Of a stretch of 55,754 nt of DNA, positions 47,592 through 55,656 are shown piece after piece. Where the stretch lies: NCBI GenBank assembly GCA_003022125.1, contig PXQH01000022.1, positions 1-55,754 of the forward strand, given 5' to 3'. The stretch comes from Cyanobacteria bacterium QS_8_64_29. GTDB taxonomy: Bacteria; Cyanobacteriota; Cyanobacteriia; Cyanobacteriales; Rubidibacteraceae. Both the position numbers and the translations under genes were made by a program. Every line of letters starts with the position of its first letter. Within the stretch, counting starts at the first letter, position 1. The notes under the pieces are model-generated. The model made no database searches, was not told where the DNA came from, and saw only the letters and a list, made by a program, of their open reading frames with translations.

Positions 47592-49114
47592 TGGCCGATT
47601 CTGCCCCTGCCGAAGCCAGCGATCGCGCCTATCAGCCCCCGGCCGGCCGGGTTAGCGAGTACCAGTTCAGCGGTGACGGTTCGGCGGGCTGGCCCTACCA
47701 AGTGCGGGCCGAGTGGCTGCCGCTGCGCGAGCGCGAGCGGGCCGTGGCCGAGGTCTTTCATGTGGCCTATCTGGCTGGCGATGCCCATCCCGGCGAGCGT
47801 CCGCTCACCTTTGCCTTCAATGGCGGCCCCGGGGCTTCCTCGGCCTTTTTGCACCTAGGCGCGCTCGGGCCTCAGCGGGTGGCGTTTGCGGCTGACGGTA
47901 CGGCGCCACCGCCGCCGGTGCAGCTAGAGTCGAATCCGGCAAGTTGGCTGCCCTGGACGGATCTGGTGTTTGTCGATCCGGTGGGGACAGGCTTTAGCCG
48001 TCCGCTTGAGGCCGCCTCGGACACATCGGCGCCATCCCAGCAGAACCGTAGCGACACGGCCCAGCGCGACAGCCAAGCCGAGACCGGCAACTTCTACGCC
48101 CTACAGCGGGATTTGGATGCGCTGGCCGAGTTCCTGCAGCGGTTTTTATCCCGGCACGGCCGTTGGGAGAGCCCCATCTTTGTTGTCGGCGAGAGCTACG
48201 GCGGGTTTCGGGTCGCCAAGCTGACGCAGCTGCTGCAGCAGCGCTACGGCATCGGGCTCAATGGGGCCATCTTGCTCTCGCCGGCCCTGGAGTTCCAAAT
48301 CCTAGATCCTTCCGATTACGACCTCCTGCCTTGGATCGATACCTTTCCCACCATGGCGGCAACGGCGGCATTCCACGGCGCCAGCCGCACGTGGGCGCCC
48401 GATGCCGCACCCGAGACCGTCCGCGCCGAAGCCGCCCGATTTGCTAGCAATGACTTGCCCCGCTTGCTGGTCCAGGGCGCTGCCATGCCGGATGAGGAGC
48501 GGCAGGCGCTGCTGCAAACCATGGCGGACATGCTGGGCCTACCCGAAGCGCTAGTGACAGCCGCACAGGGCCGCATTGCCAAGACCACCTTCGTGCGCCA
48601 CCTCCTGCGCGATCACCGCCGGGTGTGCGGCCTCTACGATGCCACGGTCACCGCCGTCGATCCCTACCCCGACCGCGAGCGTTACGAAGGCCCCGACCCC
48701 ACTTTGGCCGGCATTGACCGGATATTTGAGGCGGGCATCAACGCCCTGCTGCGCCGCGAGCTAGGACTCGAGACCGAGCGGCCTTACACGTTGGTCAATT
48801 GGGAGGCCAACCGCTGCTGGCAGGTGGATCTCGAGCGCCACCTGCTCGAGCGCCAGATTGGCGCTACGGACGAGCTTCGCTACGGCCTGCAGCTCAACCC
48901 GCACTTGCAGGTCTATTTGGCGCACGGCTACTACGATTTAGTTACGCCCTTCCACACCAGCGATCGCCTGGTGCAGCTGATGAAGCTGGATGAGGGCGCG
49001 GCCGCGCGCTTGGCGGTGGAGCGCTTTGGCGGCGGCCACATGTTCTACACTTGGCCGGCGTCTCGCAGCGCGCTGGCAACTACCATGCAAGCGTTCTACG
49101 CGCGCGCGATCTAG
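47591..49114 (+). CDS. S10-family serine carboxypeptidase-like protein
   Basis: 507-residue alpha/beta-hydrolase of peptidase family S10. Nucleophile Ser in [15 protein letters not shown] (residue about 202), preceded by the substrate-recognition [18 protein letters not shown] motif and [15 protein letters not shown]; catalytic Asp probably in [19 protein letters not shown] and His in [10 protein letters not shown]. No signal peptide is visible, so it may be cytoplasmic. Start ATG 47591, coupled to the upstream gene. Convergent with the fecE-type gene, overlapping by 4 bases. Confidence 0.9.
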
Positions 49115-49911
49115 CGGCGCGCGGCCACCGCCCGCCGCCCGATGGGCACGCACATGGGCGTGCCGGCCACCGGATCGGGCACGATGCGGGCATCGATGCT
49201 AAAAACGGCGCGGACGGTCTGCTCGGTCATGACGCGCTCGGGCAGGCCTTGGGCGTAAATTTGCCCGTCGCGCACGGCCACCAGGTAGTCGCTGTAGCGG
49301 GCTGCCTGGTTGATGTCGTGCAGCACCATAACCACCGTCCGCTGCTGCTGGACGTTGAGCTCGGCCAGCAGGTCCAACACCTCCATTTGATGGGCCAGAT
49401 CCAAAAAGGTTGTGGGCTCATCCAACAGCAGGATTTCGGTGTCCTGCGCCAGCACCATGGCTACCCAGGCGCGCTGGCGCTGCCCGCCCGAGAGCTGCTC
49501 CAGCGGACGATGGGCGAATTCCTGCATGCCGGCCAGCTCGAGCGCCCAAGCCACCATGCGCTCGTCCTGGGACGACCACTGCTGCAACCAGCTCTGGTAA
49601 GGGTAGCGCCCCTGGGCGACCAAATCCCGCACGGTCAGCCCCTCCGGGGCAATAGGGCTCTGGGGCAAAATGCCCAAGCGCTTGGCGACTGCCTGGGTGG
49701 AGCGCCGAAAAATATCGCCCCCATCCAGATAAACCGTGCCGCCATGCGGCTTGAGCAAGCGGGCCAGCCCCTTGAGCAGGGTGGATTTGCCGCAGCCGTT
49801 GGGCCCCACCAGGACCGTGATGCGCTCGCTGGGCACCGCTAGTGCCAAATCGCGAATGACGGGCGAGCGGCCGTAGCCTAGGGTCAGGTTTTGCGTCTCG
49901 AGCCGGTTCAT
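49111..49911 (-). CDS. Ferric-siderophore ABC transporter ATPase (FecE type)
   Basis: 266-residue ATPase subunit of an iron-siderophore/iron(III) importer. Walker [21 protein letters not shown]-loop [19 protein letters not shown], signature [18 protein letters not shown], Walker [18 protein letters not shown]-loop [19 protein letters not shown]. It is on the minus strand, with the fecD-type permease also minus but about 4.5 kb away, the intervening region holding the isi module on the plus strand. Start ATG 49911. Confidence 0.88.
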
Positions 49912-50141: not shown

Positions 50142-51017
50142 ATGAAAGGAACCCCAATTTCGCTAGCCGCTTCGCTGATCTACAGCACGGCGCCACTGAT
50201 TGCACCAGTGAGCGCCGTTGCCGTGATCGCAACAGTCACAACTTCCCAGCCTAGCCTAGCCCAAGCAAGCGAGGGGTCTGCCCGAGCAGCCCTGCAAATG
50301 GGTTTCGAAAACTATAAAAAAGGAAACTACCAAGCCGCAATTGAAGACTTCAACCGCGCCATCGAGCGCGATGGCGAGCTAACGCGGGCGTATTACTTTC
50401 GCGGCGTGAGCTACCTGCAGTTAGGCAAGCCCCAAAAAGCGCTCGAGAGCTACAACCAGACCATCGAGCGCGATGAGGACAATGCCAGCGCCTACCACGA
50501 CCGCGGCGTCGCTCACGCGCAGCTGCAAAATTGGGACAAAGCGCTCAAAGACTACAACCAATCGCTCGAGCTCAAACCCAACCAACCCAATGTCTATCTC
50601 AACCGCGGCATTGTCAAAACGCGCCAGGACCAGCTCGAGGCCGCGATTGAGGACTATACCCAAGCCATCGAGCTCGACAGCGAGCTAGCCGGTGCCTACG
50701 CCAACCGCGGCGTCAACCACGCCGCCCTCGGCAACCGGCAAAAAGCCCTCGACGACTTTGAAAAAGCTGCCAAGCTCTTTCAGGAACAAGGCAACCAGGA
50801 GCGCTACCAGGCCGTTCAAGAGCGGATGCAGAAGCTCAAGCAGCAGGCCGCCGGCACCAACTTCCAACTTGAGAAAGCGGATGAAGGGGATGGCAGTGGC
50901 GATGCTGCCACCGACTCAGGCGATGGCACAGCTGCCGAAGGCGAAGACGAGGAAGCTGAGGCCGATACTGACGCTGCTGCGGATGCCGAAGCAGGCGAAG
51001 CCGACAACGAGCAATAG
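50142..51017 (+). CDS. Exported TPR-repeat protein with acidic tail
   Basis: 291-residue protein. The signal peptide spans about residues 1-40 with a hydrophobic core and likely cleavage near LAQAS. Residues about 50-215 contain about five tetratricopeptide repeats of the type AYYFRGVSYLQLGKPQKALE/NRAIERD. The last ~60 residues are Asp/Glu-rich with a probable disordered character (ADEGDGSGDAATDSGDG). It is likely periplasmic or thylakoid-lumenal and mediates protein contacts. Start ATG 50142. A strong terminator follows at 51054, so it is probably not cotranscribed with the IsiA-like gene. Confidence 0.85.
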   Translation: MKGTPISLAASLIYSTAPLIAPVSAVAVIATVTTSQPSLAQASEGSARAALQMGFENYKKGNYQAAIEDFNRAIERDGELTRAYYFRGVSYLQLGKPQKALESYNQTIERDEDNASAYHDRGVAHAQLQNWDKALKDYNQSLELKPNQPNVYLNRGIVKTRQDQLEAAIEDYTQAIELDSELAGAYANRGVNHAALGNRQKALDDFEKAAKLFQEQGNQERYQAVQERMQKLKQQAAGTNFQLEKADEGDGSGDAATDSGDGTAAEGEDEEAEADTDAAADAEAGEADNEQ

Positions 51018-51053
51018 CCTCTCCTAGCCGCCCTAATAAGCTTCGCTGCCATG

Positions 51054-51082
51054 GCGCTGCCCTTCGGGGCAGCGCTTTTTTT
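51054..51082 (+). terminator. Rho-independent terminator after the TPR gene
   Basis: GCGCTGCCC-TTCG-GGGCAGCGC (9-bp perfect stem, UUCG tetraloop) followed by seven T residues. It separates the TPR gene from the IsiA-like gene. Confidence 0.93.
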
Positions 51083-51154
51083 GCGAGCGGCTACTTGCGG
51101 CGTCCTGTGAACTTTCATTAAAGCCGATCTCAACAAGCTGGCCGTAAGATAAGC

Positions 51155-51181
51155 TTGCTCGGCAAGTTGTTGCGCTATATT
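51155..51181 (+). promoter_or_regulatory. Candidate promoter of the IsiA-like gene
   Basis: TTGCTC at 51155-51160 and TATATT at 51176-51181, spacing 15, a little short for sigma-70. The -35 lies in a small inverted repeat CTTGC-TCG-GCAAG (51154-51166). No clear Fur box. Tentative. Confidence 0.3.
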
Positions 51182-51206
51182 TTCAACTAGCTAGGAGGTG
51201 AACGGC

Positions 51207-52253
51207 ATGGCAGCGAGTACGGCCAGCGCGCTCTCGCCCGCGCAAGATCCCGATCGAGCCCCCTGGTGGGCGGGCAACGCGCGCTTGATCCATCACTCAG
51301 GCAGGCTGCTGGGCGCGCACGTGGCTCACGCCGGGCTGATCGTCTTTTGGGCCGGGGCCATGACGCTGTTTGAGCTCTCGCAGTTCGACCCGGCTCAGCC
51401 CATGTACGAGCAGGGCCTGATCCTGCTGCCACACCTGGCTGCCCAGGGGTGGGGCATTGAAGCTGGCGGCGAGATCGGCAGCACCTACCCCTATTTCGCC
51501 ATTGGCACGCTGCATCTGATCTCGTCCGCCTTTTTGGGCGCTGGCGGCGTTTACCACGCCCTGTACGGTCCGGCCGAGCTGGAGCGGCGCTTTCCCTTTT
51601 TTGGCTACAGCTGGTCCGATGGCAACAAAATGACCACCATCTTGGGCATCCATCTCATCTTGCTGGGGATAGGGGCCTTTCTACTGGTTGCCAAAGCGAT
51701 GGCCTTCGGCGGCCTCTACGATCCCAGCGTTAGCGATGTGCGGGTCGTGAGCGACCCCACGCTCAACCCGGCGCCCATTTTCGGGTATTTGGTCGATGCC
51801 TCAGGCCGCAACTGGCTCGCGGGCGTTGACAACCTCGAAGATCTGGTCGGCGGGCACGTCTGGATCGGCATCCTGCTGGTATTGGGCGGCGTTTGGCACG
51901 TGCTGACGCAGCCTTTTGGTTGGGCCAAGCGCGTGCTGGTCTGGTCCGGCGAGGCCTATTTGGCCTACGGCCTGGGTGGGCTGGCCCTAATGGGCTTTGT
52001 CGCGACCTACTTTGTCGCCGTCAATACCACCGCTTATCCGGAGGCGTTCTACGGACCGCCCCTAACGGTCAAATTCAACATCGTTCCTTACTTTGCCCAC
52101 GCTGACCTCGACTACGTCACGGCCCGCACCTGGCTGGCCAACGCCCATTTCTGGTTGGCGTTCTTCCTGCTGCAAGGCCACATCTGGCATGCCCTGCGGG
52201 CCGCCGGGTTTGACTTCCGCCGGGGCCGGCGCACAGCCGAGGCTGCCCAATAG
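51207..52253 (+). CDS. IsiA/CP43'-like chlorophyll-binding protein
   Basis: 348-residue protein of the Pcb/IsiA six-helix antenna family in the thylakoid membrane, binding chlorophyll a around PSI or PSII. Conserved start [41 protein letters not shown] and [73 protein letters not shown], and the C-terminal [17 protein letters not shown]. The large lumenal loop E of CP43 is absent, which marks the antenna form. Start ATG 51207 has AGGAGG 8 bases upstream; a GTG 51198 is also in frame. It precedes the PsaL-fused paralogue by 41 bases, likely one operon. Confidence 0.92.
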
Positions 52254-52294
52254 CGGCAACGGAGTGCTATCGCAAGAGATTGCAAGGAGGAGTT

Positions 52295-53782
52295 ATGACA
52301 GCAACGGCAACTGCACCGGAGGGCGCGCAGCCCCGAGTGGGCTGGTGGGCCGGTAACGCGCGCCTGACCGATCTCTCGGGCAAGCTGCTGGGCGCGCACG
52401 TGGCCCACGCTGGGCTGATCGTGTTGTGGGCTGGCGCCATGACACTGTTCGAGCTCTCGCAGTTCGATGCCAGCCAGCCCATGTACGAGCAGGGCCTGAT
52501 CCTGCTACCCCATTTGGCTGCCCTAGGGTTTGGCGTTGGCCCCGGCGGCGAGATTGTCGATACCTATCCGCTATTTGCCATCGGCGTCCTGCACCTGGTC
52601 GCTTCGGCCGTCCTGGGCGCTGGGGGGCTCTATCACGCCCTGCTTGGCCCTGCCGTCCTGCGCCGCGACGAAACCTTTTTGGGGTTTTTTGGCTATGACT
52701 GGCAGGACACCGACCGCATGACCAACATCCTGGGTATCCACCTGGTCATGCTGGGCATTGGGGCTTGGCTGCTGGTGGCCAAAGCCATGCTCTGGGGCGG
52801 CCTGTTTGACCCAGCTGCAGGCGAGGTGCGCGCCGTTAGCGACCCCACCCTCAATCCCGCAACCATCTTTGGCTACCTGGTCGGCGCTTGGGGGCCTGAA
52901 GGCATGGCCGCGGTTGACAACCTGGAAGATGTGGTGGGCGGCCACATCTGGGTGGGCCTGATCTTGCTTGCCGGGGGTGCTTTCCACATCTTTACCCAGC
53001 CGTTTAGCTGGGCGCGGCGCGTGCTGGTCTACTCGGGCGAGGCTTATTTGTCCTACAGCCTGGGGACGCTAGCCTACATGGGCTTTTTCGCCGCTTACTT
53101 TGTCACGGTCAACGACACGGTCTACCCCGAGACCTTCTACGGCCCGGCCGGGACGTTCGAGACCGAGGCCGGCACCGTCACTGCGCGCGGCTGGTTGGCA
53201 ACGTTCCACTTCGTCCTGGCCCTGCTGGTGCTGTTCGGCCACATTTGGCACGCCATCCGCGCCCGCGGCCGGGCGGCTGGCTTTGACTTTAGCGCCGGCG
53301 ATTTCATCGGCCCAGACCGCAGCCAAAGCGAGGGTAATCTCGCCACGCCCGTCAACGGCTCCGACTTTGCCCTGTTTTTCCTCAAGTACTTGCCCATCTA
53401 TCGCCCCGGGCTCTCGCCGCTGGCTCGCGGACTGGAGATTGGCATGGCCCACGGGTACTTCCTGCTGGGCCCGTTTGCCCGGCTGGGCCCCATGCGCGAT
53501 GCCGAAGTTGCCAATCTGGTCGGGCTGCTGTCAGCCAGCGGGCTGATCGTCATTCTGACGGTGTGCCTGTCGATTTACGGCACGGCCGCTTCGTCGCGGA
53601 CGCCCGAGCTGCCCGAGCAGCGATCGCCAGCCCCGAGCGTGCCGGCAGCCCTCCAAACCAGCGAAGGCTGGAGCCAGTTCTCGGGGGCCTTTTTAGTCGG
53701 CGGCGTTGGGGGCGCGACCTTTGCCTACCTGCTGCTGGAGAATGCCGATCTGCTGGGCGCTATCGCTAGCGGCTCGGTCTAG
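52295..53782 (+). CDS. IsiA-like antenna fused to PsaL
   Basis: 495-residue two-part protein. Residues about 15-335 form an IsiA/CP43'-like antenna ([25 protein letters not shown] and [14 protein letters not shown] motifs, ending in [18 protein letters not shown]). Residues about 348-487 are PsaL, the trimerisation subunit XI of photosystem [66 protein letters not shown], then [24 protein letters not shown]. The linker after residue 335 is short and there is a Pro/Ser-rich insertion before GWSQ. Known from some cyanobacteria as an IsiA-PsaL fusion; it could tether antenna rings to PSI. Start ATG 52295 with AAGGAGG just upstream. Confidence 0.93.
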
Positions 53783-53792
53783 ATCCGCCCGT

Positions 53793-53830
53793 ACCGGCCT
53801 GCCTAGGGAAAGGCGCCTTGGCAGGCCGGT
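53793..53830 (+). terminator. Strong inverted repeat after the fusion gene
   Basis: ACCGGCCTGCC and GGCAGGCCGGT form a perfect 11-bp stem, extendable to about 15 bp with one mismatch. A C-rich run, not a T-run, follows, so termination by the intrinsic mechanism is uncertain; it may act as an mRNA-stabilising or attenuating hairpin between the antenna gene and the regulator. Confidence 0.6.
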
Positions 53831-53853
53831 CCCCCCTCATGCAGTAACGAGCA

Positions 53854-54657
53854 ATGGGTAACGCCATGCCGACCCGCCAATCGCAGCAATGCCTGGCCCA
53901 TTTGAGCCGGTCGACTTTCAGGCGCTACGAACGCCTCTCGCAGCGCGCCAACGACCTTTGGAAGATCGAGCGGGGCGCCGTGCGCAGCTATAGCTGGAAC
54001 GCGGCCGGCCATGCCATCACGCTGGGCTATTGGGGACCAGGGGACGTGGTGGGCGGTTGCCTGTCGCGCTTTGCCCCCTACAAGACCGAGTGCCTCACCC
54101 GGGTCGAGGCCATCCGCATTCCCAAGCGCTACTGGCCGGCGCTGGCTGAGGCCATTCTGACGCACGCCCAGCAGACCCAGGAACTGCTGCAAATCGTTCG
54201 CTCGCCCAGTGCCTATGGCAACTTGCGGCAGCTGCTCGACTGGCTCGCTGGTAAGTTCGGTCGGCCGGTGCCGGCGGGGCAGCTCATCGACTTGCCGCTG
54301 ACCCACCGCGAGATCGCTGAATCCATCGGGACGGCACGCGTCACGGCCACTCGCTTGCTCAATCAGTTAGAGGTTGAGGGAGCAATCGTCCGCCAGCGAC
54401 AGCACCGCGTCATTGTGTGCCACCCCGCAAGATCGCTCGGTGTCCCTGATGGCAGCGAAGAGATAGCTAGCTCAATAGGGGCGGCGGAGCACCAGCAAAT
54501 AGATCAAAAACGGCGCCCCGATGGCCGAGGTGATCGAGCCGCAGGGGAGTTCGGTCCCCGGAAACAGGACCCGGCCGAGCAAATCGGCTACGACCACCAA
54601 CATGCCGCCCATCAAAGCCGCCGTGGGGACCAAGCCTTCGTGCGCAGCGCCCACTAG
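53854..54657 (+). CDS. Crp/Fnr-type transcription regulator
   Basis: Open frame of 267 residues. The N-terminal half shows a small effector-like beta-barrel (DLWKIERGAVRSYSWN, LGYWGPGDVVGGCLSRF), shorter than the classical cNMP domain. The C-terminal winged helix-turn-helix is clear: LTHREIAESIGTARVTATRLLNQLEVEGAIVRQRQHRVIVC. The family normally ends soon after this, about residue 190. The last ~75 residues are antisense to the fecD-type gene end and look like read-through. Position after the isi genes suggests control of this iron-stress module. Start ATG 53854, with a second in-frame ATG at 53866. Confidence 0.75.
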   Translation: MGNAMPTRQSQQCLAHLSRSTFRRYERLSQRANDLWKIERGAVRSYSWNAAGHAITLGYWGPGDVVGGCLSRFAPYKTECLTRVEAIRIPKRYWPALAEAILTHAQQTQELLQIVRSPSAYGNLRQLLDWLAGKFGRPVPAGQLIDLPLTHREIAESIGTARVTATRLLNQLEVEGAIVRQRQHRVIVCHPARSLGVPDGSEEIASSIGAAEHQQIDQKRRPDGRGDRAAGEFGPRKQDPAEQIGYDHQHAAHQSRRGDQAFVRSAH

Positions 54658-55518
54658 GCGGCGGGCCAAATGCGGCGCCATCAATCCGACGAAACTAATG
54701 CCGCCAGCCGTAGCGACAGCACTGCCAGCCAGTCCCACGCTGGTTAGCAACAGCACCCCGCGCTGCCACTCCACGCGGCTGCCCAACCCAGCGGCCAGCG
54801 CATCCCCCAAACTGAGGGTGTTGAGCTCGCGCGCCATGACCAGCGCCAGCACCCCCAAAACCACCAACCAAGGCACCAGGGCCAGTACATGGTCCCAGCT
54901 GCGCCCGTAAACGCTACCGGTAAGCCAAACGAGTGCCCGCGACACGTTGTCGATTTGGCCGAAGGCCGTCATAAAGCCCGTCAGCGAGCTCACCAGACTG
55001 TTGAGGCCGATCCCCACCAGCACGAACCGCACCGGCGAGCTGCCGCCCTGCCAAGCCAGCAGATAGACCAGCACCGAGACGGCTAGGGCGCCGCCAGAGG
55101 CTGCGAACGGCAGCAGCGAGACGGAGGCATTGGGGAGCGCCACGATCAGCGTGACGGCCGCCAAGGCAGCACCGGCGTTGACGCCAATGATGCCGGGGGC
55201 CGCTAGCGGATTGCGCGTGATGCCTTGAATGAGCGTGCCCGCGATCGCCAGCCCTATCCCCACAAGGACGGCCACCAAAGCGCGCGGCAAGCGCAGCACG
55301 TTAACCACGAACGGATGGTTGGGATCGCCGGTTTCGAGTCCCAGGATGGTTTTGATAACCGCCAGCGGCGGCACGCGGTACTCGCCATAACTGACGCTTG
55401 CCACCACGGCCATGCCCGTGACGAGCGCTAGCGCCAGCAGCGCAACGGGCACCCGCCGGTCGAAGCGGAATGAGAGCGGCGGCCGTTGGGTGCGCAGGAC
55501 TAGCCAGTACGAAGCCAT
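54472..55518 (-). CDS. Iron-siderophore ABC permease (FecD type)
   Basis: 348-residue polytopic permease of the BtuC/FecCD family with about ten hydrophobic segments. Conserved ALVAVLVGIGLAIAGTLIQGITRNPLAAPGIIGVNAGAALAAV, FVLVGIGLNSLVSSLTGFM, FVGLMAPHLARRLVGAAHEGLVPTAALMGGMLVVVADLLGR and the C-terminal ELPCGSITSAIGAPFLIYLLVLRRPY. Probably works with the fecE-type ATPase at 49111. Start ATG 55518; the frame is open a little further upstream. Its 3' 186 bases overlap the opposite regulator frame. A MITE copy begins about 140 bases upstream of its start. Confidence 0.88.
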   Translation of the reverse strand: MASYWLVLRTQRPPLSFRFDRRVPVALLALALVTGMAVVASVSYGEYRVPPLAVIKTILGLETGDPNHPFVVNVLRLPRALVAVLVGIGLAIAGTLIQGITRNPLAAPGIIGVNAGAALAAVTLIVALPNASVSLLPFAASGGALAVSVLVYLLAWQGGSSPVRFVLVGIGLNSLVSSLTGFMTAFGQIDNVSRALVWLTGSVYGRSWDHVLALVPWLVVLGVLALVMARELNTLSLGDALAAGLGSRVEWQRGVLLLTSVGLAGSAVATAGGISFVGLMAPHLARRLVGAAHEGLVPTAALMGGMLVVVADLLGRVLFPGTELPCGSITSAIGAPFLIYLLVLRRPY

Positions 55519-55656
55519 GCCCAAGATGCGGTTGCCCCGCTTGGAAACTGACGAATCCAAACTCCCTCAAATCCCTTGCGCGTTGCAATAGCTTGTCGCG
55601 CGAAAAGCGCTGGTCAGCCAAGCTGTTTGCCTGAGCTAGGCTTGCAATACCTCTCA

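Follow-up and report, generated by a model that had tools for sequence, protein, structure and literature searches.

A known type of isiA-psaL fusion gene and its unfused antenna partner in a small, GC-rich cyanobacterial genome without a standalone flavodoxin gene

Where in photosystem I (PSI) would a protein sit that carries both a chlorophyll antenna and the PsaL subunit on one chain, and what would it do there? The question is raised by a 495-codon gene of Cyanobacteria bacterium QS_8_64_29, at 52295-53782(+) of the window (the whole stretch of 55,754 nucleotides of contig PXQH01000022.1 that was analysed), in which the original prediction saw an IsiA-like antenna fused to PsaL and built into the centre of the PSI trimer. 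Read directly, the gene is a single open reading frame from an ATG at 52295 to a TAG at 53780-53782, with no internal stops and no frameshifts, and a likely ribosome-binding site (AAGGAGGAG, 52284-52292(+)) ends 2 bases 5' of the ATG. Antenna and PsaL were correctly placed within one chain, as both Pfam domains are matched in this one frame: the PSII/CP43 family (PF00421) with E 2.8e-77 and a best stretch of 21-291, and PsaL (PF02605) with E 2.9e-60 over 348-490, both ranges being given in the numbering of a TTG-started 500-residue protein, from which five is subtracted for the ATG-started form of 495 residues. The chlorophyll antenna family TIGR03041 is matched with 411.6 bits against a cut-off of 335. 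Four in-frame start codons lie within residues 291-395 (at 301, 312, 366 and 384), only the last of which, Met384, is preceded by a Shine-Dalgarno-like sequence; since this codon is already within predicted PsaL helix 1 (375-397), translation from an internal start is unlikely to yield a complete PsaL of its own.

The antenna domain spans approximately residues 17-330 (52343-53284(+)) and is supported by Pfam, conserved histidines and a structural model. PF00421 matches the fusion in two stretches, profile positions 4-272 and 445-484 of 500, and the missing middle is the site of the large CP43 loop; by sequence, the antenna half is of the IsiA/CP43 type without that large lumenal loop. A linker of about residues 331-348 (53285-53338(+)), modelled with low confidence, leads into the PsaL domain at approximately residues 343-485 (53321-53749(+)), with three long predicted helices, the PF02605 match and the conserved residues E381 and H386. 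Residues of this kind, in antenna and PsaL alike, bind chlorophyll. In an alignment of 40 fused proteins (the window's included), 11 antenna histidines are shared by 39 or more, and the window protein has all of them; its PsaL domain likewise keeps every position on which at least 95% of 131 PsaL rows agree. Residue 368 largely separates the two forms of PsaL: 83 of 91 fused rows have Ile there, and 38 of 40 standalone ones have Ala. From H319 to L366 the window protein has 48 residues, against 46-49 in 39 fused relatives. The Pro/Ser stretch that had been thought an extra of this PsaL is nothing of the sort: G429-W459 counts 31 residues in the window protein, and 30 of the 39 fused relatives are longer (34 residues in 15, 33 in 13 and 40 in two), the other nine having 25.

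Among solved structures, the best match of the fusion is chain 7y3f_1, the IsiA2 of Anabaena sp. PCC 7120, whose sequence is also in entry 9zjt (E 1.4e-197, residues 19-491 of 500), and CP43 chains rank after it. The two proteins share their whole architecture with 62% identity over 469 columns and linkers matching in length within one residue, whereas the loop between PsaL helices 2 and 3 is six residues longer in the window protein. An AlphaFold model built with 40 fused sequences (mean pLDDT 75.6, pTM 0.55) retrieved 7y3f_1 at rank 1 in Foldseek (E 7.7e-38, 62% identity, 469 columns, rmsd 14.3 Å) and second by Z in VIA-align (31.8, tied with CP43 chains; rmsd 13.0 Å). The model thus backs both folds, but it places the two halves unlike those of 7y3f_1, and its linker has a pLDDT below 50. 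In the Anabaena PSI-monomer-IsiA complex, which consists of a PSI monomer and six IsiA subunits, PsaL is missing, and IsiA2 fills the vacant position with its C-terminal domain (Nagao et al. 2023, PMC9938196). Residues W426, F427, N451 and W454, which served to distinguish IsiA2 from PsaL in the map (PMC9938196), differ in the window protein when aligned to 7y3f_1.

On these comparisons the window protein belongs to a class already known under several names: IsiA2 in Anabaena, IsiA4 in Leptolyngbya (a name also used in PMC9938196) and CBPV. The IsiA4 proteins of Leptolyngbya JSC-1 and Trichodesmium, cited here for their architecture and gene clusters, have a C-terminal PsaL domain and a cluster of IsiA-like genes, as in the window, and are assigned to monomeric PSI, although their clusters are larger (isiA2-isiA3-isiA4-cpcG2; PMC12090762). 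The PsbC-PsaL hybrid nsp37500 of Nodularia, likewise a CBPV, shares the fusion, nine membrane helices and a cluster with isiA-like genes; its cluster includes isiB and a classic isiA, both of which the window genome lacks, and nine further carriers of the fusion were named by its authors in 2013 (PMC3610870). Anabaena has four isiA genes (PMC9938196) against two in the window genome. Classic IsiA (IsiA1; PDB 6kif, 6nwa and 6k33) has the same six-helix antenna domain as the fusion, but is unfused and forms an 18-member ring around PSI trimers (PMC9938196). No gene of the IsiA1 class was found in the window genome by the PF00421 search and the IsiA tree. In PMC7214436 the numbers denote ring positions, not genes.

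The fusion has a companion, as had been predicted: an unfused antenna gene (51207-52253(+)) lies 41 bases upstream on the same strand, an arrangement that proves usual: of the loci of the best 80 among 394 relatives (many with short flanks), 73 have such a partner. In a second set of 16 loci from genomes labelled G, at least 14 are paired, two (L124 and L125) being missed by the pair rule through overlapping stop-to-stop frames; the sets are not summed, as at least five of the 16 genomes are already among the 80. The best solved match of the unfused protein is 9zjt_2 (505 bits, against 386 to Anabaena IsiA1, 7y3f_4), from an entry that also contains the IsiA2 sequence, and 9zjt_2 is probably Anabaena IsiA3. 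The copy is called IsiA3-type because the IsiA tree places it in a clade of 30 rows (SH-aLRT 83) made up of unfused upstream partners. In the same tree the fused antenna halves, the window's included, fall in a set of 34 rows, 32 fused and two unfused (SH-aLRT 98), and both window proteins lie outside the clade named IsiA1-type, which is without an Anabaena IsiA1 row. The names IsiA1-type, chosen from the pattern of scores, and IsiA5-type are putative labels for two other unfused clades. The tree holds 95 rows; a narrow motif filter let through rows from four of 11 additionally fetched loci and one of two extra IsiA-like genes of G005. In G013 (L125 8028-10423(-)) the unfused gene is nearer to the fused antenna half (495 bits) than to the usual IsiA3 type (432) and is perhaps a recent copy or split.

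A standalone psaL had been proposed as the thing to look for, and one was found on contig C51 of the genome, an assembly of 2.22 Mb in 69 contigs with 99.95% completeness. The GC content of the window is 64%, that of the genome's own loci on other contigs 61-67%, and that of six family members' loci 43-54%. A recent, local joining of this psaL to the antenna gene was rejected as the origin of the fusion. A PsaL tree of 86 rows (the window, the complete set of 40 standalone rows and a random sample of 45 from 90 fused ones) required two changes between fused and standalone labels against a shuffled mean of 28.8; the window's PsaL half pairs with the fused row L010 (support 88), whilst the separate psaL of this genome falls among the standalone rows of its family. 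As the window's PsaL half groups with other fused halves, the fusion is old, although the deep branches of this tree are weak and the fusion need not have a single origin; both trees were quick searches with many weak branches. The standalone rows (L127-L166) form two well-separated groups of 22 and 18 (SH-aLRT 98 and 100) with the fused rows outside, and genome G027 has one member in each (L146 and L159). The original prediction was right that such fusions were already known, but not that they are few: the architecture is present in all of the best 80 loci, and at least 33 of 386 genomes sampled across the phylum (the window's included) have a match spanning the join at E <= 1e-30, counted where the row starts at query residue 4 or earlier. 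A further match, in G341, lies within a 531-residue frame and may be one more carrier. In the family the fusion occurs in eight of nine genomes, the window's own among them, and is absent from G002. Carriage by viruses was rejected, IMG/VR having yielded one pattern stretch and zero relatives.

The best explanation, to which we give a probability of roughly 0.86, is that this IsiA2-type (CBPV) protein takes the seat of PsaL, holds PSI in the monomeric state and, when iron is short, initiates an arc of IsiA. Its PsaL domain would dock in the PsaL seat of a PSI monomer, displacing ordinary PsaL, and the attached antenna domain would lie against PsaA and block the formation of trimers or tetramers. 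The fused antenna domain would also start an arc of IsiA, mainly or only of the neighbouring IsiA3-type protein, which would feed excitation energy to PSI when a shortage of iron makes PSI itself scarce; the ordinary PsaL encoded on the other contig would serve PSI oligomers. Replacement of PsaL and the monomeric state are carried over from the Anabaena structure, in which energy transfer was timed at 55 ps (PMC9938196), and the same role is given for the fused class in PMC12090762 and PMC3610870. For the window organism itself we infer control by iron and a make-up of two proteins.

The alternative that survives best accepts the same structure and differs in its trigger, such that its probability and that of the best explanation do not sum to one: the antenna pair may be a standing or low-light antenna of PSI in this lineage, iron stress being no longer the main cue. 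We think this improbable, at perhaps one chance in four. Two points in its favour concern flavodoxin. An isiB-like frame is present in 67 of the best 80 of 394 loci, the broken one of L010 counted, and adding those from 13 of the 16 G loci gives 80 frames, 72 of which are no more than 1 kb from the fusion's downstream end. Within the family, G003-G007 have a full-length isiB, which in G003 flanks the fusion on its opposite side. No standalone flavodoxin was found in the window genome, whose only two flavodoxin domains belong to frames of some 600 residues each, a size that would suit flavodiiron proteins. In the nearest relative, QS_4_48_99 (G001, L010), the fusion is intact and the isiB immediately behind it is broken, at 9867-10326 of L010 (7158-6699 of L111). 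Since the flavodoxin gene usual beside the pair is missing, the tie to iron stress is weakened. Loss of isiB with the fusion kept is probably not unique to the window genome, as four of 11 genomes (nearly all picked for a locus without isiB) have no full-length standalone flavodoxin, namely G000, G001, G008, which is only 85% complete, and G013; G001 also has a partial flavodoxin match in a 192-residue frame. The other seven have a full-length one elsewhere. A standing antenna would also be consistent with the narrow set of antenna genes, the six PF00421 matches of the genome being accounted for by CP47, CP43, the fused gene and the unfused gene.

Against a standing antenna are the neighbours of the pair. 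Genes resembling those of a siderophore-iron transporter flank it, FecE-like at 49111-49911(-) and FecD-like at 54472-55560(-), both scoring under the curated NCBIfam cut-offs. These minus-strand genes enclose a plus-strand cassette (a TPR gene, the IsiA3-type gene, the fusion and the Crp-type gene) that is placed as if inserted into a fec operon. The fec genes of L049 stand together, approximately 2 kb from the fusion. The phycobilisome also argues against it, since its genes are present (eight PF00502 matches, as in five of eight other family members) and the main antenna has therefore not been replaced by the pair; the stronger idea that the pair serves as the main antenna finds no support in this family-typical number.

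A Crp/Fnr-type gene, identified by profile matches (53854-54657(+)), starts 72 bases past the stop of the fusion, in the place that isiB takes in most relatives, and its 3' part overlaps the end of the opposite-strand fecD-like gene. It may be, as was suggested, a dedicated regulator of the pair. Crp-type relatives occur in four of the best 80 of 394 loci (several with short flanks), three in Moorena and one in Halothece, where they are divergent and upstream of the unfused gene; G004 and G007 have short partial frames in that upstream position (L112 and L115), G013 has a match of 61 bits close to the pair (L125), and the copy of G003 is about 2.8 kb away (L117). A second Crp-type copy, 52% identical, is on contig C13 of the window genome. 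IdiB is a Crp-type iron regulator. IutR was set aside as a relative of the regulator, being described as an AraC protein. A terminator-like hairpin (51053-51076(+)) stands ahead of the antenna gene pair, and a perfect inverted repeat with 11-base arms and no T-run behind it (53793-53830(+)) lies between the fusion and the regulator. A scan of 50900-54800 found no sigma-70-like promoter. Rfam IsrR (RF01419) matches antisense to both antenna genes (51612-51789(-) and 52700-52877(-); 114.8 and 100.5 bits), but the CP43 genes of two genomes score higher (151.9 in the window's own genome and 174.4), so the match seems to follow CP43/IsiA coding sequence and is not taken as a sign of an IsrR antisense RNA.

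The placement with which the locus was first read, in which the fused protein enters PSI trimers and brings antenna chlorophyll to their centre, is most likely wrong and very improbable as a rival to a monomer-forming IsiA2-type protein. PSI oligomers do require PsaL (PMC9938196), and the well-conserved PsaL domain of the fusion would agree with such a role; in the solved homologue, however, PSI is a monomer in which the PsaL-like domain replaces PsaL, and its authors propose that the antenna domain of IsiA2 hinders oligomerization (PMC9938196). A functionless gene, whether a decaying relic or a wrong join, can practically be dismissed, for only the lineage's loss of isiB points that way, and the intact frame with its ribosome-binding site, the retained histidines and PsaL residues and the identical architecture at each of the best 80 of 394 loci all speak against it.

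What, then, would an IsiA2-type protein with so few partners mean for this organism? One tentative answer, which we hold to be rather less probable than its opposite, is a minimal system: the fusion and one IsiA3-type antenna would constitute the whole antenna of the PSI monomer, without an IsiA1 ring or flavodoxin, and remodelling of the antenna would be uncoupled from the switch from ferredoxin to flavodoxin and placed under a local Crp-type regulator. The fusion itself is of a known kind; mildly new is the minimal set, a fusion with an IsiA3-type partner and without IsiA1, IsiA5 and flavodoxin, of which we recognised no report in a literature judged mostly by titles. The locus extends a structurally understood fusion of antenna and PSI subunit to a small, GC-rich genome with fewer partners. 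Should the two genes suffice by themselves, they would offer a very simple example in nature of a PSI monomer recruiting an IsiA arc, and would raise the question whether such an arc functions without flavodoxin.
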